Origin: Streptomyces toyocaensis | GTDB taxonomy: Bacteria; Actinomycetota; Actinomycetes; Streptomycetales; Streptomycetaceae | Reading direction: 5' to 3' | Length of the DNA stretch: 64,000 nt | Assembly (NCBI RefSeq): GCF_000725125.1 | Contig: NZ_JFCB01000005.1 | Coordinates: 62,001-126,000 of the forward strand | Shown here: positions 2,362-56,482 of the stretch, piece by piece | How the letters are laid out: every line of letters starts with the position of its first letter | Numbering within the stretch: the first letter of the stretch is position 1 | Notes under the pieces: generated by a model | The model's input: the letters and a program-made list of their open reading frames with translations, nothing else | Databases searched by the model: none | Told to the model about the DNA's origin: nothing | Program-made: the position numbers and the translations under genes

Positions 2362-2799
2362 TCAGATGTGTGCGAGTTTCTCCAGCACGGGGGCGGCGGC
2401 GCGGAGTTTCGCCCACTCGTCCTCGTCGAGCTCCTCCACGAGCGATGCCAGGAACGCGTTCCGCTTGCGGCGGCTCTCCTCGAGCATGGCCTCGGCCTGC
2501 TCGGTCTGCGTGACGACCTTCTGGCGCCGGTCGTCGGGGTGCGGCTCCAGCCGGACGAGTCCCTTGGCCTCCAGCAGGGCCACGATGCGGGTCATCGACG
2601 GCGGCTGGACGTGCTCCTTGCGGGCGAGCTCACCCGGGGTGGCGCGGCCACAGCGGGCCAGGGTGCCGAGCACCGACATCTCGGTGGGGCTGAGGGACTC
2701 GTCGACGCGCTGGTGCTTGAGCCGACGGGACAGCCGCATCACGGCGGATCGGAGGGCGTTCACGGCGGCTGCGTCGTCGCCATGGCTGAGGTCCGGCAT
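2362..2799 (-). CDS. MarR family transcriptional regulator
   Basis: A 145-residue winged-helix protein. The recognition region LTPGELARKEHVQPPSMTRI-like segment (about residues 52-74) is followed by the wing motif PDDRRQKVV, both diagnostic of MarR. It is the first gene of a two-gene unit with the MFS exporter and probably represses it until a ligand binds. No ribosome-binding site is visible. TACGCT (complement of 2807-2812) ends 7 nt before the ATG, so the transcript looks leaderless. An inverted repeat covers this hexamer, which implies autorepression. Confidence 0.9.
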   Translation of the reverse strand: MPDLSHGDDAAAVNALRSAVMRLSRRLKHQRVDESLSPTEMSVLGTLARCGRATPGELARKEHVQPPSMTRIVALLEAKGLVRLEPHPDDRRQKVVTQTEQAEAMLEESRRKRNAFLASLVEELDEDEWAKLRAAAPVLEKLAHI

Positions 2800-2803
2800 G
2801 TTC

Positions 2804-21308: not shown

Positions 21309-21378
21309 AGCTCCGGTGCTGTCGGCGCCTTACCAAGCAAGAACCCGGGGAGAAAGAACCCCACCAAGCCCCACCCCT

Positions 21379-21409
21379 CCCGCCCGAGGCGCGCGATCAC
21401 TCGGGCGGG
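21379..21409 (+). terminator. Terminator hairpin after the RsbW-like gene
   Basis: CCCGCCCGAG (21379-21388) and CTCGGGCGGG (21400-21409) form a perfect 10-bp stem with an 11-nt loop, 70 bp after the stop codon. Confidence 0.7.
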
Positions 21410-21552
21410 TGAACATCACCGGCTCAGCTGGATTTTCGAACCCCAGACACCTCTACGCTCAGCGCAATCAACCCCACAAAAAACTTCGGCCCCCGCCAGG
21501 GCTGCAATCCCGGTGCGAGGGCCTGACCACCAAGGAAGTCGAGACCTTCCCG

Positions 21553-54423: not shown

Positions 54424-54498
54424 ATTGCCCCCTCCGCATCTCTCACGGAGGGGGCAATGTCCTCAACGCTCGGTCACCGTCATTACCGAAGGTAATGA
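54424..54498 (-). terminator. Two hairpins ending the ThrC-like/MoaD-like operon
   Basis: TCATTACC-GAA-GGTAATGA (54480-54498) directly follows the sulfur-carrier stop. A perfect 13-bp stem, ATTGCCCCCTCCG/CGGAGGGGGCAAT with a 9-nt loop (54424-54458), comes next and is a strong terminator. Confidence 0.85.
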
Positions 54499-54774
54499 TC
54501 AGCCTCCGGCGACCGCCGGAATGATCGACACGCCGGCCCCGTCCGGGGTGGCCGTCTCGAGCCCCTGCTCGAACCGCACGTCGTCGTCATTGACGTAGAC
54601 GTTCACGAACCGCCGCAGCCTGCCCTGATCGTCCAGCACGCGGGCGGCGATCCCCGTGTGGTTCTTCTCCAGGTCCGAGATGACCTCGGAGAGGGTGGCG
54701 CCCTCGGCGCTCACCTCGGCCCGCCCACCGGTGTAGGTACGCAGGATGGTGGGGATACGGACATTCACGCTCAC
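54499..54774 (-). CDS. MoaD/ThiS-like sulfur-carrier protein
   Basis: A 91-residue ubiquitin-fold protein: MSVNVRIPTILRTYTGGRAE, then FVNVYVNDDDVRFEQGLET and the C terminus IIPAVAGG. The terminal GG is the site where sulfur carriers are adenylated and converted to a thiocarboxylate. CysO and MetO-type relatives donate sulfide to PLP enzymes. It is the second gene, 108 bp behind a ThrC-like PLP enzyme controlled by a SAM riboswitch, so its job is probably sulfur delivery for homocysteine synthesis. GTG 54774 has CGGAGG 7 nt upstream. Confidence 0.9.
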   Translation of the reverse strand: MSVNVRIPTILRTYTGGRAEVSAEGATLSEVISDLEKNHTGIAARVLDDQGRLRRFVNVYVNDDDVRFEQGLETATPDGAGVSIIPAVAGG

Positions 54775-54882
54775 GACAAAACCTCCGGAAGGGACAGCAC
54801 CCTGGGGGCGCGGGACTGTGCTTGATGTGCGGCTACCGCCGCGTGGGCGCGGCCAGCCACGACGGACCCGCAGACGAACGAC

Positions 54883-56178
54883 TCAGACAAGCCCGGCTTC
54901 ACGGAACGACTCAAGGCTCGGGCGGATCGTCGCGGTCAACCCCGTACCCGCCACCGCGTCCAGCGTCTTGAGACCGTCCCCGGTGTTGAGCACCACCGTG
55001 GTGAGCGAAGGGTCGAGCGCCCCGCTCTCGAGAAGCTTCTTCGTGACCCCCACGGTCACACCCCCCGCGGTCTCCGCGAAGATCCCCTCCGTGCGCGCGA
55101 GCAGCTTGATCGCGTCGACGATCTGCTCGTCGGTCACGTCCTCCACGGCCCCGCCCGTGCGGCGCGCGATGTCCAGGACGTACGGCCCGTCCGCCGGGTT
55201 CCCGATCGCCAGCGACTTGGCGATCGTGTCCGGCTTCTGCGGACGCACGACGTCGTGCCCGGCCTTGTAGGCGGTGGACACCGGCGAGCACCCCTCCGCC
55301 TGAGCGCCGAAGATCTTGTACGGCCTGTCCTCGACCAGCCCGAGCCGGATCAGCTCCTGCAGGCCCTTGTCGATCTTCGTGAGCTGGGAGCCGGAGGCGA
55401 TCGGGACCACGAGCTGGTCGGGGAGCCGCCAGCCGAGCTGCTCGCAGATCTCGTACGCGAGGGTCTTCGAGCCCTCGGCGTAGTACGGCCGCAGATTGAC
55501 GTTGACGAAGCCCCAGCCCTCGCCGGCCGGGTCGCCGATCAGCTCGGAGCAGAAGCGGTTCACGTCGTCGTAGTTGCCCTCGATGCCGACGAGCTCGCCC
55601 CCGTAGACGGCGGCCATGACGACCTTGCCCTGTTCCAGGTCGTGCGGGATGAACACGCAGGAGCGGAAGCCGGCCCGGGCGGCGGCGGCACCGACCGCCC
55701 CGGCGAGGTTGCCGGTCGAGGAGCAGGACAGGGTGGTGAAGCCGAAGGCGCGGGCGGCCTCGAGGGCCTGGGCGACGACGCGGTCCTTGAAGGAGTGCGT
55801 CGGGTTGCCCGAGTCGTCCTTGACGTACAGACCGCCGGTGACGCCGAGCTCGCGGGCCAGGTTGTCGGCCTGGACGAGCTTGGTCCAGCCGGGGTTCAGG
55901 TTCGGCTTGGCCGCCACGTCCGCCGGGACGGGAAGCAGGGGCGCGTAGCGCCAGATGTTCGCGGGTCCCGCTTCGATCCGCTTGCGCAGCTCCTCGGTGT
56001 CGTGGGCCGAGAAGTCGTAGGCGATCTCCAGCGGGCCGAAACACTCCTCGCAGGCGAAGACGGGGCCGAGGGGCACGCGGTGACCGCATTCGCGGCAGGA
56101 GAGCGCGGTGGCGGGGCCGAGATCGACGGCGTTCGCGGTGGCGGAGTCGGTGGTGCTTGCAACGGTCTGCACAGCCAT
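54883..56178 (-). CDS. thrC: Threonine-synthase family PLP enzyme, probably a sulfur-carrier-dependent homocysteine synthase (MetM-like)
   Basis: A 431-residue PLP enzyme. An N-terminal zinc ribbon (LSCRECGHRVPLG, FACEECFG) is followed by the PLP lysine motif NPTHSFKDRVVAQALEAAR (about residue 130), the phosphate-binding SSTGNLAGAVGAAAARAG and a C-terminal TGDGLKTLDA. By family it is threonine synthase acting on O-phosphohomoserine. Streptomyces has another thrC beside hom and thrB. Here a SAM-I riboswitch precedes the gene and a thiocarboxylate-type carrier follows it. That fits an enzyme that swaps phosphate for sulfide to make homocysteine, as I recall for MetM. The biochemical role is inferred. 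Confidence 0.85.
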   Translation of the reverse strand: MAVQTVASTTDSATANAVDLGPATALSCRECGHRVPLGPVFACEECFGPLEIAYDFSAHDTEELRKRIEAGPANIWRYAPLLPVPADVAAKPNLNPGWTKLVQADNLARELGVTGGLYVKDDSGNPTHSFKDRVVAQALEAARAFGFTTLSCSSTGNLAGAVGAAAARAGFRSCVFIPHDLEQGKVVMAAVYGGELVGIEGNYDDVNRFCSELIGDPAGEGWGFVNVNLRPYYAEGSKTLAYEICEQLGWRLPDQLVVPIASGSQLTKIDKGLQELIRLGLVEDRPYKIFGAQAEGCSPVSTAYKAGHDVVRPQKPDTIAKSLAIGNPADGPYVLDIARRTGGAVEDVTDEQIVDAIKLLARTEGIFAETAGGVTVGVTKKLLESGALDPSLTTVVLNTGDGLKTLDAVAGTGLTATIRPSLESFREAGLV

Positions 56179-56198
56179 GTGAGGCGAGGCCCTTTCTC

Positions 56199-56342
56199 CT
56201 CATCTTCCTCACGACGCATCTCGCCGTGAGACGGATTTGGCACCTTCCCTAGCCGGGAGCCTCGCCACGTCCGCGTGACAGGAACCGACTGGAGGGTTGC
56301 CGGGGCTTCATCGGGCCGTGTCCCTCTGCCCCTCTGGATGAG
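56199..56342 (-). ncRNA. SAM-I (S-box) riboswitch
   Basis: On the minus strand the S-box core is plain: AGAGGGGCAGAGGGAC, then GGCCCGATGAAGCCCCGGCA and ACC, and later GGTGCCAAATCC. The outer stem P1 pairs GATGAG (56337-56342, as CTCATC in RNA sense) with CTCATC (56199-56204, as GATGAG). The 3' strand of P1 runs straight into AGGAG, the likely ribosome site of the downstream gene, so ligand-bound RNA would hide it. Such RNAs turn off methionine and sulfur genes when SAM is plentiful. Confidence 0.92.
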
Positions 56343-56482
56343 CGGTGTTCAGTTGTCCGCGCGACGACCCCGGCATGCGAGGGTCATCGGCGTTGTTCAA
56401 GACTGTAACCGAAGGCCCGGATGGTCGAGACAGTCCGTCCGAACCGCGAGATGGATCACTGGGCAGTGAGGAGCCGGGGACC

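Follow-up and report, generated by a model that had tools for sequence, protein, structure and literature searches.

A Putative metM-metO Operon for Homocysteine Synthesis under a SAM-I Riboswitch in Streptomyces toyocaensis

The window, a stretch of 64,000 nucleotides of S. toyocaensis DNA, carries on its minus strand an operon that reads from 56344 to 54424 in the order SAM-I aptamer, PLP enzyme gene, ThiS-family gene, and inverted repeat. This is very probably a metM-metO operon, predicted from its sequence to form homocysteine from O-phosphohomoserine via the thiocarboxylate of the carrier protein MetO, under SAM-I feedback. The system is already known: its discovery is that of Hasebe et al. 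(2024; Appl Environ Microbiol 90:e01247-24), who, as summarized in a 2025 paper (PMC12172450), assigned homocysteine synthase activity to MetM of Streptomyces and described the metO gene. The Streptomyces MetM/MetO pair that a sequence-only reading of this DNA had invoked is, by the same summary, a real one. Our analysis suggests two new details, namely SAM-I-metM loci without metO in three relatives and a stretch of the riboswitch P3 arm that is complementary to the Shine-Dalgarno region.

Features of the Operon

The following features were identified (window coordinates).

56255..56266, minus strand: P3-arm stretch GGCGAGGCTCCC, complementary to GGGCCTCGCC (Shine-Dalgarno end and spacer; 56183-56192, minus strand); putative role
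56197..56344, minus strand: aptamer of a SAM-I (S-box) riboswitch in the leader of metM (RF00162, 78 bits, full-length match 1-108)
56190..56197, minus strand: Shine-Dalgarno-like AGAAAGGG, read from the sequence, 11 bases 5' of the ATG
54883..56178, minus strand: metM, putative PLP-dependent homocysteine synthase, threonine-synthase-like, with an N-terminal Cys4 ribbon (PF00291, TIGR00260; MetM-specific residues)
54499..54774, minus strand: metO, sulfur-carrier protein of 91 amino acids ending AVAGG (PF02597, E 2e-16)
54424..54458, minus strand: GC-rich 13-bp hairpin, a likely transcription terminator without a T-run (perfect inverted repeat ATTGCCCCCTCCG...CGGAGGGGGCAAT)

The sequence-only reading had placed an S-box core at 56199-56342, a ThrC-family PLP gene, and a ThiS/MoaD-like gene ending in GG on this strand, all of which are confirmed by the profile matches, with coordinates accurate to within a few bases; the Rfam search that it proposed returned a full-length match above the RF00162 gathering score (44.4 bits). 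Its terminator 3' of the carrier gene corresponds to the perfect 13-bp hairpin, a likely terminator at which the consensus terminator scan makes no call because the hairpin lacks a T-run.

The MetM Enzyme

By standard models the 431-amino-acid MetM is a ThrC: it matches PF00291 (E 5e-67) and scores 268 bits against TIGR00260, for which the thrC equivalog cut-off is 167 bits, and its relatives in the PDB are threonine synthases. A canonical thrC is nevertheless found elsewhere in the genome, between hom and thrB, so that metM is not the only candidate for a threonine synthase gene. The product of this canonical gene is 36-38% identical to MetM, belongs to the same fold family, and shares the SFKDR motif that contains the PLP lysine (K131 in MetM). 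It is of a type other than PF14821 (Thr_synth_N), to which no match was found in the genome.

The two proteins can be told apart by their residues. When 99 MetM-type proteins, ranging down to about 58-60% identity, were compared with three ThrC sequences, approximately 50 positions were conserved in at least 97% of the MetM-type proteins and differed from, or were absent in, ThrC; at approximately 30 aligned positions the MetM-conserved residue is consistently unlike that of ThrC. These MetM-specific positions include C28, C31, C43, and C46 of the Cys4 ribbon. Relative to the three ThrC sequences, the canonical threonine synthase active-site motifs are replaced, GNAGN (which binds the PLP phosphate in ThrC) by ASGSQ from residue 261, EPAS by ETAG, and GLKD by GLKT. 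The ThrC of hom-thrC-thrB, in contrast, retains GNAGN, EPAS, and GLKD and lacks both the N-terminal Cys4 ribbon and an S-box. The second thrC, the MetM-specific residues, and the SAM-I leader together support the earlier suspicion that the threonine synthase label is likely wrong.

The MetO Carrier

The metO gene starts at a GTG codon with GGAGG a few bases upstream, and its product ends in PAVAGG. The best match of MetO in the PDB is 3dwg chain C (E 8e-30), which is M. tuberculosis CysO. S. toyocaensis also encodes a CysO of its own, within a complete mec-cysO-cysM cluster (mec encoding a JAMM protease) on contig C7; this CysO is 56% identical to MetO, ends in GGMA, and is accompanied by cysM and mec, a linkage that is absent at metO. 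MetO is therefore a separate paralogue.

Among 80 carriers encoded downstream of metM, 72 end in GG, seven in GGC, and one in GGA. The carriers with GGC or GGA ends (loci L042, L076, L080, L094, L095, L097, L098, and L100) would therefore need to be trimmed by one residue before thiocarboxylation.

The Leader and Its Riboswitch

No second RF00162 match besides that at metM was found in the 7.3-Mb genome. The window also holds a strong match (232.7 bits) to the Streptomyces sRNA family scr4677 (RF02673) at 21309-21552 on the plus strand.

The first base of the Shine-Dalgarno-like AGAAAGGG is the final base of the aptamer match, directly 3' of the 3' strand of P1, and GAGAAAGGGCCTC is retained in nearly all Streptomyces metM leaders. 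No U-rich terminator was found between the aptamer and metM, and a promoter scan found no promoter. Given a Shine-Dalgarno sequence at the very end of the aptamer and no U-rich terminator, translational control appears the likelier mode for the metM S-box in Streptomyces. The minimum-energy fold of the leader mixes aptamer and coding bases and has a modest z of -1.25, and for these reasons was not used in modelling the switch. In a distant relative (L131, about 2760-2802, minus strand), a hairpin and T residues, together a likely transcription terminator, come after the SAM-I aptamer; the expression platform of the metM S-box therefore seems to differ between lineages.

The P3 arm offers a possible link between aptamer and translation. 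Of 82 distinct P3 segments from Streptomyces, 78 retain GAGGC or GAGGU (GAGG[CT]), complementary to GGGCCUC at the Shine-Dalgarno end, versus 12% in shuffles, and the arm flanking this stretch varies widely among Streptomyces metM leaders. The energy of the P3/Shine-Dalgarno duplex is unexceptional (median z -1.36, with 29 of 82 leaders better than 95% of shuffles), and in predicted folds the 5' side of P3 is another partner for GAGG. Because of these energies and the competing pairing inside P3, we treat the interaction as a lead only. It is conceivable, if rather doubtful, that P3 GAGGC/U captures the Shine-Dalgarno end and the spacer to the start codon, such that the aptamer would act as its own anti-Shine-Dalgarno carrier and control translation.

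Metabolic Setting

Neither MetX (best TIGR01392 match, 21.8 bits) nor a MetA-type homoserine acyltransferase was found in the genome. Acyl-homoserine routes would therefore be without their first enzyme, leaving O-phosphohomoserine as the likely activated precursor in S. toyocaensis. The presence of cystathionine gamma-synthase/lyase-like genes counts against the homocysteine reading, though the canonical route needs an acyl-homoserine donor; with that donor absent, these genes may serve reverse transsulfuration. A MoeZ-type activating enzyme is also encoded (750 bits).

Conservation across Actinomycetota

Each of 20 sampled Streptomyces genomes has exactly one MetM-type gene (>700 bits), and six of the 20 have MetX as well. 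The carrier gene lies downstream of metM in all 80 loci tested, the genomes concerned being named and, with one exception, titled Streptomyces, and metO follows metM in most of the distant loci tested. A SAM-I aptamer was found upstream of metM in 18 of 19 loci tested, including those of distant actinobacteria outside the genus with approximately 60% MetM identity. Across 396 Actinomycetota, 43 have both MetM and MetX, 104 MetM only, 118 MetX only, and 131 neither, a modest negative association (odds ratio 0.46, Fisher p 0.0005, uncorrected for relatedness).

Three relatives have SAM-I and metM with no adjacent carrier gene (L124, L127, and L128, in genomes G375, G327, and G192, respectively). 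The only carrier found in each of these genomes with MetO as the query adjoins cysM and a JAMM gene, which suggests that one carrier is shared: should MetM function in these relatives, CysO would probably supply the synthesis of cysteine and homocysteine alike.

Comparison with Known Systems

A parallel in chemistry is the CysO-CysM-Mec+ system of M. tuberculosis, whose carrier is homologous to MetO and in which a protein thiocarboxylate is the sulfur donor for a fold-type II PLP enzyme, as proposed for MetM/MetO. The S. toyocaensis operon differs in that its enzyme is ThrC-like, its expected substrate is O-phosphohomoserine, and it includes no JAMM protease gene, the CysO cluster of the genome being separate. 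The route of Wolinella succinogenes uses O-acetylhomoserine and a MetY-type enzyme, unlike MetM/MetO. What it has in common with MetO is a carrier-protein thiocarboxylate directed toward methionine, in that case HcyS (Krishnamoorthy and Begley 2011, cited as reference 34 of PMC5764234).

By description, the operon corresponds to that of S. albulus, with the same ThrC-like enzyme, metO, and metM preceded by a SAM riboswitch, and no difference was found from what PMC12172450 relates of the work; according to the same source, it is MetM that keeps S. albulus from being a methionine auxotroph (Hasebe et al. 2024). The presence of a single MetM-type gene in each of the 20 Streptomyces genomes lends indirect support to a probable orthology with S. 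albulus MetM. A Microcystis homologue of MetM, on the other hand, has threonine synthase and deaminase activity and no riboswitch, and its role in methionine synthesis has been doubted (PMC12172450). Function is therefore not transferable to every MetM homologue, and some members of the family may be bifunctional.

Alternative Explanations

Could MetM be merely a second threonine synthase with an incidental carrier gene beside it? Its TIGR00260 score and the threonine formed in vitro by the cyanobacterial homologue (PMC12172450) speak for this, yet the genome already has a canonical thrC in hom-thrC-thrB, the SAM-I leader and the carrier linkage are conserved throughout the genus and further, and the aligned positions conserved in MetM are consistently unlike ThrC; we consider such a role very unlikely. 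That the operon makes cysteine in the manner of CysO-CysM is harder still to credit: the closest solved relative of MetO is a CysO-type carrier, but the full mec-cysO-cysM cluster is located elsewhere, MetM resembles ThrC and not CysM, and the leader is of a SAM-sensing type.

A further alternative has MetM use free sulfide in vivo, with MetO working in another pathway. PLP sulfhydrylases often accept sulfide, and the three relatives that have SAM-I-metM and no adjoining carrier gene would suit this explanation. Against it are the position of metO after metM in all 80 loci and in most distant ones, and the CysO-type carriers that the relatives without metO nonetheless encode, and we judge it improbable. 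Thiocarboxylate-dependent synthesis of homocysteine, the route proposed by the sequence-only reading, thus remains the favored assignment, and every prediction of that reading that could be computed was borne out.

Proposed Mechanism and Implications

In the mechanism that we propose, the C-terminal Gly-Gly of MetO would undergo adenylation and thiocarboxylation, for which the MoeZ-type enzyme is the most likely catalyst. By homology with the published MetM/MetO, MetM would bind the O-phosphohomoserine made by ThrB and eliminate its phosphate on PLP, as in threonine synthase, but would then take sulfur from the MetO thiocarboxylate, and not water, to yield homocysteine. Hasebe et al. (2024) reportedly found that MetO thiocarboxylate gives sulfur to O-phosphohomoserine. 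Homocysteine would be converted to methionine and on to SAM, and SAM bound to the S-box leader would close P1 beside the Shine-Dalgarno sequence and so lower translation of MetM; both the direction and the level of this control are predictions.

Since standard models call MetM a threonine synthase, it still carries that name, and in automatic annotation methionine synthesis seems incomplete in many actinobacteria. The right name closes this gap, and it marks the point at which the threonine and methionine branches separate under control by SAM.
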